Shown here piece after piece: positions 1 through 35,700 of a DNA stretch of 35,700 bases. Position 1 is the first letter of the stretch; the number at the start of each line of letters is the position of its first letter. The notes beneath the pieces were generated by a model. That model saw only the letters and a program-made list of their open reading frames with translations, did not search any database and was not told the origin of the DNA. The stretch is from a virus. A program made the position numbers and the translations under genes. The stretch spans positions 1 through 35,700 of the IMG/VR virus record IMGVR_UViG_3300013117_000252; one strand, 5' to 3'.

Positions 1-1
1 A

Positions 2-82
2 GAAAGCATTGAGCCTATGTCAAAACTAATAAATGAAGTAGGGTGCAAACTTAGCAGGAAACATCCAAATAAAATCATATAA
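2..82 (+). CDS. 3' end of small cassette protein (same ORF as 35341-35550)
   Basis: The frame is open from the window edge and ends at TAA 80-82. Its 26 residues are identical to the C-terminus of the 69-residue protein at 35341-35550, because this is the repeated end of the same gene. The stop codon lies inside the TAAC motif that begins the attC-like site at 79-140. Function is unknown. It is a duplicate view of one gene across the circular join, not a second gene. Confidence 0.8.
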   Translation, partial: ESIEPMSKLINEVGCKLSRKHPNKII

Positions 83-140
83 CCGTGACGTGGTGGGTGC
101 CACAGCTTTATCGTGGTCATCCCCAACGCGCTCGGTTATG
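79..140 (+). repeat. attC-like recombination site (site A, loop version 1)
   Basis: The outer arms ATAACCG and CGGTTATG are complementary and resemble integron R'' and R' boxes. Inside them lie unmatched spacers (TGACG and CGCT), then a second pair, TGGTGGGTG and CCAAC, that resembles L'' and L'. The loop at 100-122 contains its own CCAC/GTGG stem. The upstream ORF stops in the TAAC, and a Shine-Dalgarno-like AAAGGAAAGAG for the next ORF follows GTTATG. These are the layout rules of integron gene cassettes. The same site appears at 35547-35610 with a different loop. Confidence 0.75.
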
Positions 141-166
141 TCTAAACTTAAAGGAAAGAGAATGGT

Positions 167-550
167 GTGGGAGCTAAGAAAACAGGAAGAAAAAAGAAAT
201 CTGAATATCGCAAGTACAAAGACCATCTTGATAAATTAAAGAAGATGGAGACCGCACTTGCAACAATGCGAACAGTTGCATCAACCGCTATGGAGATTGC
301 AAAATTACAATCAATTAGTGTAGCGACTAAAAGATACGCAAGTGGCGGTATTGTTTCTGACAATGCAAGAATAGATATGTTGTGCGGTAGTGGTGAGGTT
401 GTTGTTCCTTTGAGTAGAGAAGATCAAAACAAAATGGAATCTCAAAGAAGAATTGACATCAAGTCAAAAATGACCTATGATGAGAAAAGAGCATTTGATG
501 AACAATTTGCAAGAGACTATGATCAGTGCTTGTTTAGCTGTGATCACTAA
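167..550 (+). CDS. Basic cassette protein with tape-measure-like C-terminal motif
   Basis: The protein has 127 residues with a GTG start; AAGGAAAGAGA just upstream is a plausible ribosome site. An ATG at 162 in another frame gives only 25 codons and is less likely. The N-terminal 30 residues are very basic (KKTGRKKKSEYRKYK) and are followed by a helical stretch. Around residues 58-85 it reads ASGGIV, then CGSGEVVVPLSRED. This resembles the Gly-rich GG...GE-x-V-x-P segment found near the C-terminus of many phage tape-measure proteins, including the one in this window (residues about 785-812, with GG and NPGERVI). It may be a fragment or mimic of such a domain carried as a cassette. No function is assigned. 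Confidence 0.6.
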   Translation: MGAKKTGRKKKSEYRKYKDHLDKLKKMETALATMRTVASTAMEIAKLQSISVATKRYASGGIVSDNARIDMLCGSGEVVVPLSREDQNKMESQRRIDIKSKMTYDEKRAFDEQFARDYDQCLFSCDH

Positions 551-613: not shown

Positions 614-816
614 AACAATGTACAACCGGAAAAGAATGCCATCCAAATAGAGCAGAAGCAACAGTTCACCTAAAAAGATTGAAAGCTGGCTTTAAGAAGT
701 CTGGCAAGATGGCAAGAGTTAAAGAGCAGCCTAATGTGTATAAGTGTTATTTTTGCGGGTGTTGGCATGTTGGGAGATATTTTAAGAGAAGAGAGAAATT
801 TAAGAAATCAAAATAA
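610..816 (+). CDS. Small Zn-finger-like phage protein
   Basis: The protein has 68 residues; ATG follows AGAGG at good spacing. It carries CTTGKEC near residues 4-10 and CYFCGCWHVGR near residues 46-56, so four cysteines plus a His could bind zinc. Small proteins ending in a Cys-x-x-Cys-x-x-W-H motif are common in phages and are usually hypothetical. The basic C-terminus (KRREKFKKSK) suits nucleic-acid binding. It is the last ORF of the array on this side; the promoter-like element at 818 begins directly after its stop. The Zn-binding role is inferred from motif only. Confidence 0.7.
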   Translation: MKQCTTGKECHPNRAEATVHLKRLKAGFKKSGKMARVKEQPNVYKCYFCGCWHVGRYFKRREKFKKSK

Positions 817-817
817 A

Positions 818-858
818 TCGTGCAATTCCAATAAACTTAAAGTATATTGAATTCGTAC
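818..858 (+). promoter_or_regulatory. Conserved promoter-like element, copy 1
   Basis: It consists of TCGTGC, exactly 8 variable bases, TAAACTTAAAGTATATTGA and then ATTCGTAC. The same arrangement occurs at 25193 and 30039, in each case between genes and ahead of a new transcription block. TATATT could be a -10 box, but no TTGACA-like -35 lies at the right distance. That suggests a phage-specific promoter read by a dedicated sigma or activator. It stands 30 bases ahead of the lipoprotein gene at 888. Confidence 0.7.
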
Positions 859-887
859 TAATAATTCTTTAATAAATTGAGGTGAAA

Positions 888-25173: not shown

Positions 25174-25192
25174 GTGTTTATTTGAAAATAAA

Positions 25193-25225
25193 TCGTGCCT
25201 TTTTATTAAACTTAAAGTATATTGA
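25193..25225 (+). promoter_or_regulatory. Conserved promoter-like element, copy 2
   Basis: TCGTGC, 8 variable bases and TAAACTTAAAGTATATTGA match copies 1 and 3 exactly outside the spacer; the ATTCGTAC tail of those copies is missing here. It lies directly between a terminator and an attC-like site, so it would transcribe the cassette ORF at 25305 and the downstream early/middle genes. Confidence 0.7.
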
Positions 25226-25233
25226 TATAGTAT

Positions 25234-25289
25234 TTAACGCGCCGTGTGGTGGGTGGAGGTACGACATCTTCACCAAACAGCAGGTTATG
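25234..25289 (+). repeat. attC-like site (site C)
   Basis: TTAACGCG at the left and GGTTATG at the right form the outer boxes, with GTGGTGGGTG and CACCAAAC as the inner pair. The loop GGGTGGAGGTACGACATC (25251-25268) is the exact reverse complement of 34306-34323 in site F. The next ORF's ribosome site follows within 12 bases. No ORF stops in its TAAC; the promoter-like element abuts it instead. Confidence 0.65.
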
Positions 25290-25304
25290 AATAAAGAGGT
25301 AATT

Positions 25305-25550
25305 ATGTACGACACACTTCTTAAAATTGAGGAGCTGTTTGAAAAGCATACCGATTATGATCTATCATTTATGGTAATACTTTATCATAAGGAAATAGTT
25401 TTTAGCTACTCAATAACTAAAAACGAGGAAACATTTGTTGACGTAAAGAATAGTTTTGTTACAAACAGAATAGCATCTGCAAACCTTGAAATTAACAGAC
25501 TAAAAGAGCTTTACCAAGAGTATAGAAAAAAGTCAATTGAAACTATATAA
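25305..25550 (+). CDS. Small cassette protein of unknown function
   Basis: The protein has 81 residues from ATG 25305 (AAAGAGG upstream). ATG 25287 is in frame but lies on the attC-like box. It is acidic, with alternating hydrophobic stretches (SFMVILYHKEIVFSYSIT) and a helical C-terminus. Its TAA stop falls inside the TAAC of site D, and site C precedes it, so it has a complete cassette layout. No homologous family is recognised. Confidence 0.65.
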   Translation: MYDTLLKIEELFEKHTDYDLSFMVILYHKEIVFSYSITKNEETFVDVKNSFVTNRIASANLEINRLKELYQEYRKKSIETI

Positions 25551-25602
25551 CGACTCGGTGGTTTGCAGAGGAACAATGACACAACCAACCGAAAGATTAA
25601 AC
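25547..25602 (+). repeat. attC-like site with a damaged right box (site D)
   Basis: ATAACGA, then CGGTGGTTTG, loop, CAACCAACCG fit the left and inner boxes. Where GTTATG is expected the sequence reads GATTAAAC, so the right box appears mutated. The loop (GAGGAACAATGACACAACC) resembles the loop of site H. If real, recombination here is probably impaired and the cassette fixed. Confidence 0.5.
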
Positions 25603-27648: not shown

Positions 27649-28268
27649 CAGAAGAAGAAACATTAGATAACATACAGCACCTAGCCGATTTAAATAACTG
27701 GTTTGATCCATCTTTTCCAAAGATCTATATCCAAATAACAACTAATCTGTTTAATTCTGCTCTTGAATTTGAGGAAGATAGAAAAGCTGTTTGGCTGGAG
27801 ATCCTTAAACACTGGAGAGACAATAAAACACCTAATCATTTTTATTATCAGGATATGATCAATAGAAAATTAAGAGAAAATGCTACGAATCAGAGATTGA
27901 AAGGCGTGTATAAACCATTTACTAGAAAACCTCTAACCAAAGAAGAGAAAGTTGAATCTCAGAAAGCAGCAAAAGAAGCCTATCAAAAAGTATGTAGTTT
28001 GGGTGGATATAGTAAAAGCAGTAATTCAAATGAGAATAGATCTTCTCTGAGAAAGTCAAAGGTCATTCAAAATGTTAAGTTGGGACTAGTTGAGGTAATA
28101 GACTCCTCTATGATGCAACAACGGCTCGAAAATGGGCCTCTATGGATGTCTAAGGAAGAAGCTATTTCTAGAAATTTAATGTTTAAGGATCATCGTGAAT
28201 CTGTTGTTGATGAGATGAGTGGTCTTGGCAGGGTTGGAACTAGTGAATTGGTTGAGGAGTTGAGATGA
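27645..28268 (+). CDS. Uncharacterised replication-block protein
   Basis: The protein has 207 residues, starting four bases inside the replisome-organizer gene. The N-terminal 90 residues are folded and helical (AVWLEILKHWRDNKTPNHFY); the central part is basic and Ser/Asn-rich, which suggests a flexible linker. Its position directly after the initiator suggests a helicase-loader-type partner, but no AAA+ motif is present, so this is a guess by context. Confidence 0.5.
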   Translation: MTEEETLDNIQHLADLNNWFDPSFPKIYIQITTNLFNSALEFEEDRKAVWLEILKHWRDNKTPNHFYYQDMINRKLRENATNQRLKGVYKPFTRKPLTKEEKVESQKAAKEAYQKVCSLGGYSKSSNSNENRSSLRKSKVIQNVKLGLVEVIDSSMMQQRLENGPLWMSKEEAISRNLMFKDHRESVVDEMSGLGRVGTSELVEELR

Positions 28269-28957
28269 AAATTCTAGTTGCCTGTGAAGAGTCTCAAGCC
28301 GTAACTATTGAACTTAGGAAGCTAGGGCATGAAGCTTTTTCTTGTGATATAGAACCGTGTTCGGGGGGGCATCCTGAATGGCATATAAAGAGAAATGTAT
28401 TAGAAGTTTTAAAGCCTAGTTATGATGGGATGTTTTCTGAAAATTCTATTAATTTTTGGACCGAGGCAGGGGAGTTTGTAGAAATGAAAGGAGGTTGGGA
28501 TATGATGATTGCACACCCTCCATGTACAAGGCTAACTAATGCCGGAGTAAGATGGCTTAAAGATCCTCCTAAAAGCAAAACTCTTGTTGAAATATGGAGA
28601 GAATTTTTTGATGGTGTTGAGTTTTATAAAGCCATTAGGAGTGCACCAATAAAATTAAAAGCAATAGAGAACCCAATTATGCACAAATATGCAAAGGAGG
28701 CTATCGGAAATATTAAGAGAAATATTGTGCAGCCGTGGTGGTTTGGAGATAAGGCTTTTAAAGCTACTGGTTGGGAGCTATACGGATTAGAACCATTAGT
28801 TCCAACTAATAAATTAGTTCCTCCAAAGAGTGGAACTGAAGAATATAAAGAATGGTCTTTTATTCATAGAATGCCACCAGGCCAGGAAAGGTCTAAATTG
28901 AGAAGTAAAACTTTTCCAGGAATGGCTAAGGCTATGGCTGAACAATGGACAAAATAA
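28265..28957 (+). CDS. Cytosine-DNA-methyltransferase-like protein
   Basis: The protein has 230 residues. It begins MKILVACEESQAVTIELRK, then AFSCDIEPCSGGHPEWH, the start of a phage methyltransferase-like family. IAHPPCT near residues 83-89 matches the catalytic Pro-Cys motif and AIENP near 134-138 resembles the ENV motif. The protein is shorter than classical C5 methyltransferases and has no clear target-recognition domain. It may modify phage DNA to avoid restriction. It is coupled on both sides. Confidence 0.7.
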   Translation: MKILVACEESQAVTIELRKLGHEAFSCDIEPCSGGHPEWHIKRNVLEVLKPSYDGMFSENSINFWTEAGEFVEMKGGWDMMIAHPPCTRLTNAGVRWLKDPPKSKTLVEIWREFFDGVEFYKAIRSAPIKLKAIENPIMHKYAKEAIGNIKRNIVQPWWFGDKAFKATGWELYGLEPLVPTNKLVPPKSGTEEYKEWSFIHRMPPGQERSKLRSKTFPGMAKAMAEQWTK

Positions 28958-29790: not shown

Positions 29791-30032
29791 AATGGTCAGA
29801 AATAGAATTCATTGAAAAAGAAAAAGCTAAAAAATTTACCGCAAAAGTAATAAAAATTCTAATTGAGAAAGGGTGTTGTATTCTGAAGATTAAGATGTTT
29901 TGCAGTCCGGGCAGTATGTATTATTCTGTTTGGGTTTATAGGTACTACGAAAAATTCACACCTCTAGAATATGCTCATACAATATTAACAAGAGGATTCA
30001 GGCGTTTTCTTACTGCTCCACAAATTAATTAA
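29787..30032 (+). CDS. Small protein of unknown function
   Basis: The protein has 81 residues from GTG 29787 (GGGG 8 bases upstream), overlapping the previous TGA. The upstream extension of the same frame is a shadow of the zinc-ribbon gene. It contains two neighbouring Cys (KGCCILK), an aromatic-rich stretch (YYSVWVYRYYEKF) and a basic C-terminus. It is last in the block; the third promoter-like element follows after six bases. Confidence 0.55.
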   Translation: MKWSEIEFIEKEKAKKFTAKVIKILIEKGCCILKIKMFCSPGSMYYSVWVYRYYEKFTPLEYAHTILTRGFRRFLTAPQIN

Positions 30033-30038
30033 ATAAAA

Positions 30039-30079
30039 TCGTGCAAAACTAATAAACTTAAAGTATATTGAATTCGTAC
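30039..30079 (+). promoter_or_regulatory. Conserved promoter-like element, copy 3
   Basis: TCGTGC, 8 variable bases, TAAACTTAAAGTATATTGA and ATTCGTAC match copy 1 at 818 in every position except within the spacer. It begins six bases after a stop codon and 26 bases before the start of the recombination module. It probably drives that module. Confidence 0.72.
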
Positions 30080-30104
30080 ATTAATTTTTAACGAAGGAAT
30101 GAAT

Positions 30105-32078
30105 ATGTATTTATCAGGAATGGAGCTTAAAAACTTCAAGTGTTTTCCCCATTTAGTTGTCGAGTTTGGCAAAAAAACCAAAGTCACAGGAGACAACGAA
30201 AAGGGAAAGAGTACTCTTTTAGAAGGTTTTACTTGGCTCTTTTTTAGTCGTTGTGGGAATAGTTCAAAAATTGAATATCCTAAGCCTATTGTTGACGGGA
30301 AACTCCAAAGAAAAACAGACATCTTTGCAAGTGCTGTTGTTGATGGTGTTTCTTTTTCTCGTACTGTAAAAGAGAATTGGAATACTGTAAAAGGTAGGTC
30401 TCAAGAAGAATTTAAGGGGCATAGCTCTACTTATGAGATTGATGGTCTTCCGGTTTCTCAAAAAGAGTTTACTAGAAGAGTTAATGGAATGTTTGGAGAT
30501 ATAGAATTATTTAAAATTCTCTCTAAGGTTGACGCTTTTATTAATCTTGATTGGAAAAAGAGAAGAGCTTTCTTGATGGAGAATGAGGGCGACCAATTAA
30601 AAGAGAAATCTGAAGAGATAGCCAAGGTTAAAAGTAGAATGTCTCTTCTTAAAAAGAGTTCTCAGGAATATGGGCCAAGAATTGATGAATTAAATAATTC
30701 AATTGAAAAGGTGGAGTTTGATTCTAAAGAATTAGCTAGCTATAAAATTAAATTGCAAAATTCTCAAAATGAAAAAGCTGCTATTGAGAATGGTGGTGAA
30801 TTCTCAGTAATTAAAGATAGTATTTCCAATAAACAAATTGAGAAAAATGATATTAATAATCAGATTGGTATTGATAACCAAGCTCAATTAAATATTTATA
30901 ATTCTGAATCTATTGAGCTTAGCAATAAATTAATTAATCTTCAGCAAGAGGCTCAAGACAACAAAGATCTTGAGAGTTCTGAAAAGAATAAAGGAAGACA
31001 AGAAGCTCTTCGATTAAAAGATAGAATTCAAACTAACATTAACAATGAAAAGAGAAATCTTGGAGTTGCAAGGTCAGAGCTCAATGATCATCTTGAATTG
31101 AGATCAAATTTGCGTAGGCTTTGGGATCAAGAGAAAGCTTCTGAGTACAATGGTGAGACATCTTGCCCAACTTGTAAAAGAGAGCTTCCTGCTGAAAAGG
31201 TAGAAGCTGCAAAGGCCTCGTTTAATCTTAATAGGTCTACCGAGCTGGAGAATATTACTTCAAGGGGCATAGCTCTTACTGCAAAAATAATAGCTTCTGA
31301 AGACTTAATTTCAGCAATTGGATTAGGAATAGCTACTCTTGAGTCAGAGCTTGAATCAGTTGTTATTCCTGAATTAATAACTCTTGAAAATACTCCAGAA
31401 AGTGAAGAAATAAAGGATTTGAAAAATAAGATCAAAAATCCTCCCGCTTTCACTCCAGTTGTCAATCCAGAGCGACAAGAAAGAGTTAATGTACTAACTA
31501 AAGAGATTGAAGAATTGCAAACACAGCTAGATAACAAACACAGTGCTTACTCTTCTAAAATAGAAAAGATAGATGAAGATATTCAGTGTTTTGAAGAGGC
31601 TATAGAGTCACTGGTTGAGCTCCAAGAAAAGCAGAGGCAAAATGATACTACAACCTCAAGAATTTCTGAACTTCACGAAGAACAACTGCAAAACGGGCAG
31701 AATATCGCTGATTGTGAAAATGATCTCTTCAGACTGGAAGATGAAATCAAAGGTATTATTGAAAAGACAGAATCATCTTTAAATAGCAGGTTCTCTTTTA
31801 CTAATTGGAAATTGTTTGAAACTCAGGTTAATGGAGGTATTGCTCCTTGTTGTATTCCTGTTGTTGATGGTATCGAATATGAAAAACTTAACACTGCTAT
31901 GAAAATGAATTGTGGCATTGATATAATAAACACTATCTCAAGAGAAAAAGGTGTTAATTTTCCTCTGTTTATTGATAATGCTGAATGCAACACTAATATA
32001 GAGAGTACTGATTCGCAAACTATAAAATTGTATGTGGTTGAAGGTGCTGAACTTGAAACTGAAATAGTAGAGGCTTAG
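30105..32078 (+). CDS. SbcC/Rad50-like ATPase
   Basis: The protein has 657 residues from ATG 30105 (GAAGGA 6 bases upstream; ATG 30099 is too close). Walker A GDNEKGKST is at residues 29-37. Long charged coiled coils flank a zinc-hook motif CPTC at about 354-357. A Walker B-like FPLFIDNAE is near the C-terminus. These are hallmarks of SMC/Rad50-family ATPases that work with a nuclease on DNA ends. No Mre11/SbcD gene is present; the nuclease partner may be the metallo-beta-lactamase-fold protein encoded two genes downstream. Confidence 0.85.
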   Translation: MYLSGMELKNFKCFPHLVVEFGKKTKVTGDNEKGKSTLLEGFTWLFFSRCGNSSKIEYPKPIVDGKLQRKTDIFASAVVDGVSFSRTVKENWNTVKGRSQEEFKGHSSTYEIDGLPVSQKEFTRRVNGMFGDIELFKILSKVDAFINLDWKKRRAFLMENEGDQLKEKSEEIAKVKSRMSLLKKSSQEYGPRIDELNNSIEKVEFDSKELASYKIKLQNSQNEKAAIENGGEFSVIKDSISNKQIEKNDINNQIGIDNQAQLNIYNSESIELSNKLINLQQEAQDNKDLESSEKNKGRQEALRLKDRIQTNINNEKRNLGVARSELNDHLELRSNLRRLWDQEKASEYNGETSCPTCKRELPAEKVEAAKASFNLNRSTELENITSRGIALTAKIIASEDLISAIGLGIATLESELESVVIPELITLENTPESEEIKDLKNKIKNPPAFTPVVNPERQERVNVLTKEIEELQTQLDNKHSAYSSKIEKIDEDIQCFEEAIESLVELQEKQRQNDTTTSRISELHEEQLQNGQNIADCENDLFRLEDEIKGIIEKTESSLNSRFSFTNWKLFETQVNGGIAPCCIPVVDGIEYEKLNTAMKMNCGIDIINTISREKGVNFPLFIDNAECNTNIESTDSQTIKLYVVEGAELETEIVEA

Positions 32079-32080
32079 GC

Positions 32081-32878
32081 ATGACACATAATAATCAAGG
32101 CAATTTACCTGCAATTAAGGCAATTTCTCAGAGTCCGGCTATGATAAAGAGGCTCAATGATTTAAGTGTTGACTCTGCTTCTTTTATGGCTTCTGTATTG
32201 AGTATTTGCACTGACAACAAACAGCTTGTTAATTGTGATGCAAATAGTATTTGGGCTGCAGCGATTAAAGCAGCTGTTTTAAACCTCCCTATTGACAAAG
32301 AGCTTGGTTGTGCCTATCTGGTTCCGTACAAGGGTCAAGCTCAATTTCAATTAGGATGGAGAGGTTTTGTTCAGCTTGCTCTTAGGTCAAAAGAGTATAA
32401 AAGCATAAGAGCAACACCTGTTTACACCGATGAAATAGATTCATACAATCCGGTTTCAGGGGAATTCACTTTCGTAAAGGGGTTTAAATCTACATCTGAA
32501 AGATTTACAGGTGGTCAACCATTCGGGTATTATGCAAAAATCACTCTAATATCAGGATATGAAGCAACCGGATTTATGACATATGACCAGGTGGAGAACC
32601 ACGCAAAAAAATATTCTCAGGCCTATAAATATGATTTAAGTAAGAGGTATAAATCTTCCCCTTGGTCGACAGGTCGTGATGCTATGGGTAATAAAACTGT
32701 GCTAAAAATGCTATTAAAAAATTATGGCCCACTCTCAATAGAAATGCAAAAAGCCCTTGTTTCTGACAATGAAGATGAGGTGTTACCAGAAATAGAAGAT
32801 ATACCGGAAGCAAAAGTAGAAGTTCCAAAAACTCAAGAAGTTAAACAGCCTATAGAAGATGAAGAAAGGGGCTTTTAA
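32081..32878 (+). CDS. recT: RecT-family single-strand annealing protein
   Basis: The protein has 265 residues. Residues about 55-110 carry the RecT core (WAAAIKAAVLNLPIDKELGC, then YLVPYKGQAQFQLGWRGF). The C-terminus is acidic and flexible, where such proteins often contact an SSB. It anneals complementary strands during phage recombination and genome circularisation. It follows the ATPase gene by two bases and overlaps the nuclease gene by one. Confidence 0.92.
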   Translation: MTHNNQGNLPAIKAISQSPAMIKRLNDLSVDSASFMASVLSICTDNKQLVNCDANSIWAAAIKAAVLNLPIDKELGCAYLVPYKGQAQFQLGWRGFVQLALRSKEYKSIRATPVYTDEIDSYNPVSGEFTFVKGFKSTSERFTGGQPFGYYAKITLISGYEATGFMTYDQVENHAKKYSQAYKYDLSKRYKSSPWSTGRDAMGNKTVLKMLLKNYGPLSIEMQKALVSDNEDEVLPEIEDIPEAKVEVPKTQEVKQPIEDEERGF

Positions 32879-33513
32879 TGGCTACTATAACCACTTTAGG
32901 CAGTGGTTCAAGTGGCAACGCTTATATAGTTGAAATGAGTGAAGTTAGATTCTTAATAGAATGTGGCTTAAGATGGACGCAAATCTTAAAAGGGTTGAAT
33001 TTTAAACTCCCTGATTTTTGTCTCATATCTCATGAACATGGAGATCATTGTCAAAGTGTGAGAAATGTATATCAGAGTGGAATACCTATATTTTGCTCTG
33101 GTGGCACTGCCGATGCTTTAGATATTATTGAGACTCCACTGTCAGACCATATTAAATTAATAGACCTGGTTCATGATGGGAAAGAGCCAACTGGGTTTAT
33201 TGTTGATATCGATACAGAGAGATTGGTTTATATAACTGATACGAGAGATGTTAATTACAATATTCCAGGTGTTACTCATTTGATGATTGAGGCTAATTGG
33301 TCTATTCCTACTATGGATCCTAATTGTAGACATAAAGAAAGGACTATGCAGACTCATTTGTCTCTTGAAAAGTGTTGCAAGTGGGTAAAAGAGATGAATA
33401 AATCAAAGTTGGTGGAAGTTCATCTCATTCATTTGTCAGATGGAAATTCGAGTGAATCTTATTTTAAAGAGGAAGTGCAGAAGGTTTGCGGTGTTCCTGT
33501 TTATGTTAGTTAG
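32878..33513 (+). CDS. Metallo-beta-lactamase-fold nuclease (YycJ/WalJ-like)
   Basis: The protein has 211 residues. The N-terminal GSGSSGNAYIVE is the signature of the YycJ/WalJ group, and HEHGDH at residues 52-57 is the metal-binding motif. A later HLSDGNSS resembles the group's HLS-x-x-N ending. Relatives act as 5'-to-3' exonucleases, so this may make the single strands that RecT uses. The ATPase-RecT-nuclease order is known in phages. Confidence 0.8.
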   Translation: MATITTLGSGSSGNAYIVEMSEVRFLIECGLRWTQILKGLNFKLPDFCLISHEHGDHCQSVRNVYQSGIPIFCSGGTADALDIIETPLSDHIKLIDLVHDGKEPTGFIVDIDTERLVYITDTRDVNYNIPGVTHLMIEANWSIPTMDPNCRHKERTMQTHLSLEKCCKWVKEMNKSKLVEVHLIHLSDGNSSESYFKEEVQKVCGVPVYVS

Positions 33514-33972: not shown

Positions 33973-34029
33973 AATAGATGAATTCCTTGAGAAAGTGAGG
34001 CTGTTGCAATCCAAGCGATGATACACGAG

Positions 34030-34092
34030 GGTGTTTCAAATCGAATTTCCAGCGAGGAACGAGAGAAGACAAACGAAACGAAAGGTTATATC
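34030..34092 (+). repeat. Possible attC-like half site (site E)
   Basis: GAGGAACGA, then GACA, AAC and GGTTATATC resemble the right half of site H (GAGGAACGAA, GGACA, AAC, GGTTATGTC). No TAAC left box is found at the expected distance. The next ORF's start follows at once, as in the other cassettes. This is a weak call. Confidence 0.3.
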
Positions 34093-34290
34093 ATGGCAAG
34101 TGCTCACGAAGAAAACAAAGTAATAATAACAATGTCTCCTAAAGAACTTAGAGACTTGGCAGACAAAATGGAAAGAGAGTTTCCTAAAAAGAAACTCGGA
34201 GAATCTTGTTTTATTGGTATACTTGGGCATACAAAAACAAGTATGGTTGTATTACACGCAGACCAAGAGTGGTTTCATAAAAACAAATAA
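34093..34290 (+). CDS. Small cassette protein
   Basis: The protein has 65 residues from ATG 34093 (AAAGG 8 bases upstream); the same frame is open from 34018, but that part lacks a ribosome site and has the features of site E. The N-terminal half has a helical, charged segment (SPKELRDLADKMEREFPKKK), the rest short beta stretches. Its TAA stop is in the TAAC of site F. No family is recognised. Confidence 0.65.
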   Translation: MASAHEENKVIITMSPKELRDLADKMEREFPKKKLGESCFIGILGHTKTSMVVLHADQEWFHKNK

Positions 34291-34340
34291 CGACCTGTTG
34301 GTGTTGATGTCGTACCTCCACCCACCAACAGGTCGTTATG
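34287..34340 (+). repeat. attC-like site with a perfect 17-bp stem (site F)
   Basis: ATAACGACCTGTTGGTG (34287-34303) is perfectly complementary to 34323-34339. The outer arms match the other sites, but the central 27 bases (34300-34326) are in opposite orientation to site C: they match it in reverse complement with two mismatches. Normal sites have mismatched spacers; this one does not. The stop of the upstream ORF lies in its TAAC, and AAAGGAAG for the next ORF follows GTTATG. Confidence 0.75.
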
Positions 34341-34353
34341 AAAGGAAGTAATA

Positions 34354-34554
34354 GTGAATATAGAAGATGTTTCAAGCAATATCAGTTTTGAAGAAACAGA
34401 AAAAGGGGTGATAATGTTTATTGACTTTACGCACCCAGATAAGACGACAGGCATAGAAGGTGTTGATGGCAAGTTTCCGCTGACTGCTCAAATGTTTTTT
34501 GAGTTTGACAAAGAAAGCACTTATTACAAATCAATTGAGAGTTTTTTTAGATAA
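34354..34554 (+). CDS. Acidic cassette protein
   Basis: The protein has 66 residues with a GTG start; AAGGAAG is 5 bases upstream. It is acidic, with SNISFEETEKGVIMFIDFTH and FPLTAQMFFEFDKE, suggesting a small beta fold. It is bounded by sites F and G, with TAA inside the next TAAC, a complete cassette arrangement. Function unknown. Confidence 0.65.
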   Translation: MNIEDVSSNISFEETEKGVIMFIDFTHPDKTTGIEGVDGKFPLTAQMFFEFDKESTYYKSIESFFR

Positions 34555-34602
34555 CGCAAAGTTGGTGGGCGGGAACCGTCATCACCAAACGCCTTGTTAT
34601 GG
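34551..34602 (+). repeat. attC-like site (site G)
   Basis: ATAACGC and TTGTTATGG form the outer boxes; GTTGGTGGGCGGG and CATCACCAAAC the inner pair. The loop is short. Site H-type and site C-type loops differ, but the ATCACCAA right inner box recurs in the site at 35277. It separates two cassette ORFs. Confidence 0.7.
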
Positions 34603-34640
34603 CCGATTCTAAAATAAAAGTATAATAATTAATCTTTTTT

Positions 34641-34669
34641 TTGCATTAAGTATAATTATTATATATATT
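34641..34669 (+). promoter_or_regulatory. Vegetative promoter inside the cassette array
   Basis: TTGCAT, 17 bases and TATATT make a good sigma-70-type promoter. The transcript would begin near 34676 and then meet an AGTGTT/AACACT hairpin (34673-34692). It would serve the 34714 gene and those after it. A promoter within a cassette is unusual, because cassettes usually depend on an upstream one. Confidence 0.6.
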
Positions 34670-34713
34670 ATTAGTGTTGAGAGTGAAACACTAACCAAAA
34701 CAAGGAAATGAAA

Positions 34714-34914
34714 ATGAAAAAGTTCGAAGCAGGAAAAACTTACAACGAGTATTCAACAAATGGAAACCCTTACTCAATCGAATGTATTAAGGTAACAGCG
34801 AAAATGGCAACATTTAAAACTGTATACGGTGAGAAGAGAATGAGAATCGACAGAAGTATACAATCTGAAAGGGAAACGGTAAACACACCATACGGAACAA
34901 CAATCGAAGCATAA
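34714..34914 (+). CDS. Small basic phage protein
   Basis: The protein has 66 residues from ATG 34714; in-frame ATG 34708 lies too close to AAGGAA. It reads MKKFEAGKTYNEYSTNGNPY, then IKVTAKMATFKTVYGEKRM and ends in GTTIEA. This outline (F-x-x-GK-x-Y, then T-x-K-x-x-T, then R-x-x-I) resembles a family of small phage and gut-bacterial proteins of unknown function. It has its own promoter. The family link is from memory of a pattern and is uncertain. Confidence 0.65.
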   Translation: MKKFEAGKTYNEYSTNGNPYSIECIKVTAKMATFKTVYGEKRMRIDRSIQSERETVNTPYGTTIEA

Positions 34915-34920
34915 CACAAA

Positions 34921-34938
34921 GGGAGCCGAAAGGCTCCC
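34921..34938 (+). terminator. GNRA-capped hairpin after the 34714 gene
   Basis: GGGAGCC-GAAA-GGCTCCC is a perfect 7-bp stem with a stable tetraloop. No T-run follows (AGGTCTTGG), so it may stabilise or process the transcript more than end it. The next gene starts 17 bases later. Confidence 0.5.
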
Positions 34939-34954
34939 AGGTCTTGGAGAAAAT

Positions 34955-35119
34955 ATGATAAAGCTACCAGTAAGAAGATACGCAATATTTAACGATGTAA
35001 ACCGTGGCAATTATGCGGTTGTTGTTAGGGGTGAGAAAGACATAGAGACGGCTCCAAAATGGGGTGGGTTTATCTCTTGGCTCGGTGGAGTAAAAGAAGC
35101 CACAACGAGGGGGGAATAA
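34955..35119 (+). CDS. 54-residue protein, coupled to the next gene
   Basis: ATG 34955 follows TTGGAGAAA. The protein is basic at the start (MIKLPVRRYAIFNDVNRGNY) with a Trp/Gly-rich centre (APKWGGFISWLGGV). Its TAA overlaps the next ATG by one base (TAATG), which supports translation. No domain is recognised. Confidence 0.55.
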   Translation: MIKLPVRRYAIFNDVNRGNYAVVVRGEKDIETAPKWGGFISWLGGVKEATTRGE

Positions 35120-35280
35120 TGACTCTCGGTTGGTTTTGCAAAGAAAACGGGATTACACTCAAAGAAGTTGTTGAAATCTCAGAGATTCAAAAAGGGACTT
35201 TAGAGAGTCGCTGGAAGCGTGGAAAGAAGAAAGAGATGCTTTGTATCATTGAAGGGTGCAAGGCTCTCAAATCAATTTAA
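35119..35280 (+). CDS. Small helix-turn-helix-like regulator
   Basis: The protein has 53 residues from ATG 35119; GAGGGGGGAA is the ribosome site. An upstream start at 35059 in the same frame is inside the previous gene and has no ribosome site. TLGWFCKENGITLKEVVEIS, then GTLESRWKRGKKKEML resembles a minimal Cro-like helix-turn-helix. TAA falls in the TAAC of the next attC-like site. It may regulate the array's own promoter at 34641; that is inference. Confidence 0.6.
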   Translation: MTLGWFCKENGITLKEVVEISEIQKGTLESRWKRGKKKEMLCIIEGCKALKSI

Positions 35281-35327
35281 CCGTGACGTGGTGGGTGCGT
35301 AGCATCATCACCAACGGTTTTGTTATG
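35277..35327 (+). repeat. attC-like site (site at 35277)
   Basis: TTAACCG and TGTTATG form the outer boxes with one mismatch; GTGGTGGGTG and CATCACCAAC the inner pair. Its left 20 bases, TAACCGTGACGTGGTGGGTG, are identical to those of the next site at 35547, after which the loops diverge. AAAGGA for the next ORF follows GTTATG. Confidence 0.72.
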
Positions 35328-35340
35328 AAAGGATATAAAA

Positions 35341-35550
35341 ATGAAAGTTGATACAAAGTACGTTCACGCCCAAAGGGTTCTGAATAATTTTACAGAATTT
35401 GAACAACAATATTTTGAACTAGAAACTTTACGGCTTATACAAAGGATGGCTCTTAGTAAATCTGACGAAGAAAGCATTGAGCCTATGTCAAAACTAATAA
35501 ATGAAGTAGGGTGCAAACTTAGCAGGAAACATCCAAATAAAATCATATAA
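35341..35550 (+). CDS. Small helical cassette protein
   Basis: The protein has 69 residues; AAAGGATATAAAA precedes the ATG. It is helical and charged (RVLNNFTEFEQQYFELETLR, ending in SRKHPNKII). TAA is in the TAAC of the next site. The last 27 codons reappear at 2-82 across the terminal repeat. Function unknown. Confidence 0.7.
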   Translation: MKVDTKYVHAQRVLNNFTEFEQQYFELETLRLIQRMALSKSDEESIEPMSKLINEVGCKLSRKHPNKII

Positions 35551-35610
35551 CCGTGACGTGGTGGGTGAATGAGGAACGAACGTAGGACATAACCAACGTG
35601 TTCGGTTATG
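35547..35610 (+). repeat. attC-like site (site H, loop version 2 of site A)
   Basis: Outer boxes ATAACCG/CGGTTATG and inner TGGTGGGTG/ACCAAC are as in site A; the loop is AATGAGGAACGAACGTAGG and onward instead of the CCAC/GTGG hairpin. The loop resembles those of sites D and E. Position 1 of the window continues from here in the circular molecule, so this and site A are one locus in two versions. Confidence 0.75.
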
Positions 35611-35636
35611 TCTAAACTTAAAGGAAAGAGAATGGT

Positions 35637-35700
35637 GTGGGAGCTAAGAAAACAGGAAGAAAAAAGAAATCTGAATATCGCAAGTACAAAGACCATCTTG
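35637..35700 (+). CDS. 5' end of the 167-550 gene, cut by the window edge
   Basis: GTG 35637 and the following 64 bases are identical to 167-230. It is the terminal-repeat copy of the same gene and not an extra one. Confidence 0.8.
   Translation, partial: MGAKKTGRKKKSEYRKYKDHL

Follow-up and report, generated by a model that had tools for sequence, protein, structure and literature searches.

When a phage genome carries a run of small genes set between attC-like sites, and no integron integrase is encoded alongside, it may be asked whether the array is integron-type DNA and, if so, which strand of its sites would recombine and which gene would move with each site. This question is raised by a 35,700-base stretch of DNA (the window), which constitutes one whole IMG/VR virus record (IMGVR_UViG_3300013117_000252) of siphophage type. 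The window encodes the phage structural genes for terminase, portal, major head, and tape-measure proteins, and DnaD-like, SbcC-like, and RecT-like genes are also present. A recombination module at 30099-33513, comprised of SbcC-like, RecT-like, and metal-dependent hydrolase genes, lies just upstream of the array. A sequence-only reading of the window had proposed a CALIN-like cluster of cassettes mobilized by a host IntI, an interpretation that is partly supported by the present work.

Using a site pattern written for the window (TAAC..TGGYG..CCAA..GTTAKR), six matches were found on the plus strand and none on the minus strand, relative to a chance expectation with a mean of 0.005 and a maximum of 1 in 200 dinucleotide-preserving shuffles of the window (Table 1). 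The single direction claimed earlier was thereby borne out, as was the count of at least six sites, with two amendments: the element listed at 25547-25602 is decayed and lacks GTTATG, and those listed separately at 80-140 and 35548-35610 are alleles of one locus. The tally for the window is six well-formed attC-like sites plus one decayed site, all in a single direction. Site 2 provides the window's best match to a canonical attC model, on the minus strand, and the interior of site 1 is inverted relative to that of the site at 25235. As had been claimed, four small ORFs (34018-34290, 34354-34554, 35059-35280, and 35341-35550) have their stop codon within the TAAC of the site that follows; no site was found upstream of the first. 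In other phage records, an apparent homologue of ORF 34708-34914 follows the same site in G001 (alignment judged by eye), and ORF 35059-35280 has a relative in a G005 cassette behind the same site. A promoter-like intergenic repeat (..ATCGTGC..TAAACTTAAAGTATATTGA..) occurs in three copies in the window (811-872, 25186-25234, and 30031-30091), and the copy ending at 25234 is immediately 5′ of an attC-like site.

Table 1. Sites and ORFs of the cassette array in the 35,700-base window
Feature	Position	Strand	Remarks
ORF, 127 aa	167..550	+	first gene past site 4 in the circular genome
attC-like site 4, allele A	80..140	+	left contig end; same locus as 35548-35610
attC-like site, second small cassette locus	25235..25289	+	regex match
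Cassette ORF	25287..25550	+	follows site 25235; stop within TAAC of the decayed site
Decayed attC-like site	25548..25602	+	TAAC and inner stem kept; GTTATG lost
Small ORF, 90 aa	34018..34290	+	stop in TAAC of site 1
attC-like site 1, main array	34288..34340	+	regex match; perfect 17-bp palindrome without a bulged base
Cassette ORF, 66 aa	34354..34554	+	GTG start 14 nt past GTTATG; stop within TAAC of site 2
attC-like site 2	34552..34601	+	core common to G001 and G005
Cassette ORF, 68 aa	34708..34914	+	opens a multi-gene cassette
Cassette ORF, 73 aa	35059..35280	+	stop in TAAC of site 3
attC-like site 3	35278..35327	+	regex match; covariance model R1
Cassette ORF, 69 aa	35341..35550	+	stop in TAAC of site 4
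attC-like site 4, allele B	35548..35610	+	right contig end

The two ends of the contig (window positions 1-230 and 35469-35700) represent the same locus and differ only in the interior of site 4, with identity extending exactly 99 nt on either side of the site. The pair probably reflects a bubble in the assembly graph (k=99) of a circular genome, and site 4 would then be present as two alleles in one phage population. Both alleles have a 5′ half in common with the neighboring site at 35278, and the 3′ half of allele A resembles a site of G001 (91% over 46 nt). Moreover, L'' and L' are imperfectly matched in both alleles, as would be expected of a recent exchange in mid-site. The location of the array at the contig ends might also suggest an assembly artefact in which host integron sequence was fused to a phage contig, but the two contig ends join across the array by way of the identical 99-nt flanks, and the same arrays occur inside independent phage contigs of several datasets; such a fusion is considered exceedingly improbable.

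The wider distribution of the sites was examined by scanning viral contigs with degenerate site patterns and with a covariance model, R1, built on 31 sites. Arrays were detected in another 12 viral records (G001-G012), none with more than ~12 sites, for a total of ~90 sites in 13 records and a single direction within each array; an additional contig (L269) carries three sites. The carriers have different portal and terminase families, and the arrays are therefore not limited to one phage clade. G001, G003, and G004 are mutually related, and G010 has some genes in common with the window phage. Records G013-G016, which were matched by chance-prone patterns, possess no array and were excluded. 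A stricter pattern fitted to the window sites gave no match, and neither did Rfam. G008, a 152,686-bp viral contig (L116-L117) that was read over its first 40 kb, possesses an array of the same site type.

The sites follow a common plan in which R''/R' boxes of ATAAC/GTTAT enclose a covarying L''/L' stem, an unpaired spacer, and a variable terminal part, with terminal loops differing in both length and sequence. Compensatory changes in the L''/L' stem were evident in a MAFFT alignment of 31 sites that was not fitted to the model. In a larger alignment of 81 sites, which was fitted to the model and hence leans towards it, 97.8% of the cells pair, with 55 double changes; this covariation was matched by none of 500 shuffles, and slid registers came nowhere near it. 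The TAA/TTA core pairs of R''/R' were kept in all 81 aligned sites. An imperfect inverted repeat with AAC (R'') and GTT (R') ends, a second covarying stem, an unpaired spacer, and a variable terminal part are all features of attC sites, and the same two-box palindrome, box ends, covarying L stem, spacer, variable terminal structure, and gene cassettes are found with the attC sites of sedentary chromosomal and class 1 integrons. One attC feature, the presence of extrahelical bases on the L'' side (characteristic of a bottom-strand substrate), does not describe the phage sites.

The organization of the cassettes is likewise integron-like. In 64 of 67 inter-site cassettes, the longest ORF has the direction of the array; ORF starts cluster ~28-29 nt past GTTATG, and stops fall exactly at TAAC in 29 of 65 instances. 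With 12 further records, ~90 sites, stem covariation, and a consistent ORF layout, the integron-like arrangement recognized earlier in the window was upheld. Cassette products in the relatives include an N6/N4 DNA methylase, Lar-type restriction alleviation proteins, an ASCH protein, and an HTH regulator. A non-cassette gene of the window (28265-28957) is matched by a phage DNA-methyltransferase family, and a relative with 43% identity is located within a G010 cassette (L119 3240-3869).

As in a CALIN, at least two adjacent sites are accompanied by cassette ORFs in one direction, and intI is not nearby. The integron integrase profile TIGR02249 had no match above cut-off in the window or G001-G010, and PF00589 had none in the window, in agreement with the earlier claim that an integron integrase or other tyrosine recombinase is absent there. 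A complete integron would also possess an intI gene together with attI; intI was not found by profile search. Among the array records, PF00589 was matched in G003-G005 only, where an ordinary phage integrase is found beside or inside the array.

A point that goes beyond the sequence-only reading is the polarity of the sites relative to the genes, which is opposite to that of canonical attC. In the literature consulted, integron attC sites recombine via the bottom strand, and mutational work has demonstrated that the orientation of the extrahelical bases (EHBs) sets the strand (PMC2727003); in bottom-strand attC folds, both extrahelical bases lie on one side (PMC3053210). Strands were compared here by bulge position and covariance models because thermodynamic folding alone failed to separate them, and the strand-asymmetric fold suggested earlier was not obtained by that means. 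The canonical yardstick consisted of Gammaproteobacteria, class 1 integrons, and one phage, with loci drawn from regions beside intI in 57 IntI-bearing Gammaproteobacteria genomes and from class 1 cassettes of plasmids. In canonical sites, the extrahelical base occupies the 5′ (L'') arm in 44 of 49 cases and the 3′ arm in none, whereas in the phage sites it occupies the 3′ (L') arm in 77 of 91 and the 5′ arm in four. Shuffled interiors showed no strong arm preference (29 vs 37).

The first search patterns were derived from the window sites, and sites with other bulge positions would consequently be under-sampled, a bias that does not apply to covariance model R2, which was built on 24 known canonical attC sites. 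In integron loci, R2 gave 36 matches, nearly all outside its training set; it also recognized three sites in phage TJE1, sense to the genes, and the sites of class 1 integrons were likewise sense. On the phage arrays, all 18 full-length matches were antisense to the genes, and three sense matches of 23 nt, with E ~8, were compressed partial hairpins. Scoring with an attC model, as recommended by the earlier reading and carried out with our own R2, yielded E values of 0.0004-0.05 for a few phage sites, in antisense, and weak scores for most. In comparison with the bacterial integrons examined here, the phage sites have an inverted structural polarity with respect to the genes.

It is conceivable that the arrays are nonetheless ordinary CALINs with bottom-strand sites and a crossover at G|TTATG, in which case the opposite bulge would be a peculiarity tolerated in the lineage of a host integron that has yet to be sampled. 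Such a reading would suit the ORF layout relative to TAAC and GTTATG, which is exactly canonical, the homology among G003, G004, and G012, which starts in the leader, past the site, and the existence of phage CALINs with working attC sites (PMC9892861). The inverted bulge arm in the great majority of sites and the antisense-only matches of the canonical model speak against it, as does the 2.8x10^5-fold drop in bottom-strand recombination of VCR when its EHBs were inverted (PMC2727003), and this explanation is regarded as unlikely. When the EHBs were inverted in the same study, alone or together with the UCS, recombination moved to R'' on the top strand, and inversion of the EHBs along with the central spacer supported top-strand/R'' recombination at the wild-type level (PMC2727003).

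Taken together with the L'-arm bulge of the phage sites, these rules predict recombination of the coding strand. The reading favored here, and held with moderate confidence, is that of an integrase-less, integron-type (CALIN-like) array, one of a family across unrelated tailed phages, with polarity-inverted sites whose coding strand would be recombined by a host IntI. In this mechanism, the top (coding) strand would be folded by an integron integrase of the host and cut at the 5′ edge of every site (ATATAA|C). Given a cut at that position, the mobile unit would be the site plus its downstream gene (site + leader + ORF + TAA) rather than an ORF plus the site that follows it, and the interiors of sites may be swapped or inverted while the genes stay as they are, perhaps via microhomology exchange.

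Comparisons among the arrays bear on both parts of this proposal. Similarity among sites is correlated with that of the downstream leaders (Mantel r 0.07, p 0.023), with no such correlation for the upstream ends (p 0.76), and a block common to G000, G001, and G005 begins at TAAC and extends downstream. These patterns hint at a weak linkage between a gene and the site upstream of it. In G003, G004, and G012, ORFs of 87-89% identity are found with differing sites on both sides, which runs counter to such linkage and indicates that site interiors change on their own; the alleles of site 4 and the flipped interior of site 1 likewise illustrate independent change. The arrays are put forward as candidates for functional integron DNA.

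Changes of this sort could also arise if the conserved intergenic hairpins were not integron sites at all, but linkers for recombination (or terminators), with small genes being reshuffled across them by phage single-strand annealing functions. Interiors that vary under constant flanks, and ORFs that are kept under varying sites, are what short-homology exchange would be expected to produce, and suitable proteins are encoded by the carriers, including the RecT-like and SbcC-like proteins of the window, a Sak4-like annealing protein in G007, and a RecE-like exonuclease in G010. A linker or terminator would have no need, however, for invariant ATAAC/GTTAT ends, a constant bulge, and a covarying stem, and it would not account for those sites recognized by the canonical attC model at E values of 0.0004-0.005; linkers of this kind are deemed a doubtful explanation.

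Phage CALINs as such are already known, in virulent as well as temperate phages (Qi et al. 2023, PMC9892861), and the inverted polarity is the new element here. Tetrasphaera phage TJE1, for example, resembles the window phage in its integrase-less attC array and one-direction small ORFs, and its sites were among those picked for testing with IntI1, where five of six phage sites proved active (PMC9892861). TJE1 differs in that its sites are gene-sense by the canonical model, whereas the window family is antisense only and has its own stem type; moreover, R1 has no match in TJE1. Sedentary chromosomal and class 1 integrons differ in the arm carrying the extrahelical base and in their intI, which was not found in the phage records. 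The same structural change was engineered in VCR by inverting both the EHBs and the UCS (Bouvier et al. 2009, PMC2727003), but those mutants are laboratory constructs, as opposed to whole natural arrays in phages. No report of arrays with such polarity was met in searches of open-access literature, which is not proof of absence. Natural inverted arrays would demonstrate that site polarity is not rigidly tied to gene direction, and the phage arrays would supply a ready set of sites for testing the strand-choice rule. They also indicate that several lineages of tailed phage shuffle small genes by means of integron-like sites, the cassette functions including DNA methylation and restriction alleviation.

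With regard to the source of an integrase, the core site pattern had no match in 84,980 GTDB species genomes, and R1 had none in 143 Gammaproteobacteria genomes (57 with IntI), in 11 genomes with related terminases, or in the Bacillota integron-integrase loci retrieved. Terminase relatives of G001, at no more than 50% identity, point loosely to Bacillota phages, and integron integrases were found in two of 398 sampled Bacillota. Of the CALIN-like cluster with a host IntI that had been proposed earlier, the integrase-less array stands; the host IntI is possible, and neither the species genomes nor the Gammaproteobacterial integrons gave a match to the phage type of site. Either the host integron is unsampled or the sites are phage-only, and under the favored host-IntI reading the arrays would indicate a lineage of host integrons that genome collections lack.

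The occurrence of the pattern in several phage lineages, yet in none of the species genomes, could alternatively reflect a cassette system confined to phages and mobilized by an as yet unrecognized recombinase of some phage or satellite rather than by bacterial IntI. No recombinase is common to the array records, which lack IntI and have PF00589 in three of their number, and the hosts may simply be unsampled; such a system is considered quite improbable. A phage-specific version with inverted polarity, in which tailed phages would pool site-plus-gene cassettes through coding-strand recombination at the site's 5′ edge by a recombinase other than the known bacterial IntI, and would rebuild the sites by exchanging hairpin interiors, is judged distinctly unlikely.

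Unusual orientation has also been described for other integrons (PMC3607928), in which the element that is turned is the intI gene. G479, of the Bacillota, possesses two integron integrases, and its attC-like sites (L275 9212-9303 and 10372-10463) are located on the 3′ side of intI and on the same strand, which corresponds to an inverted-integrase layout.
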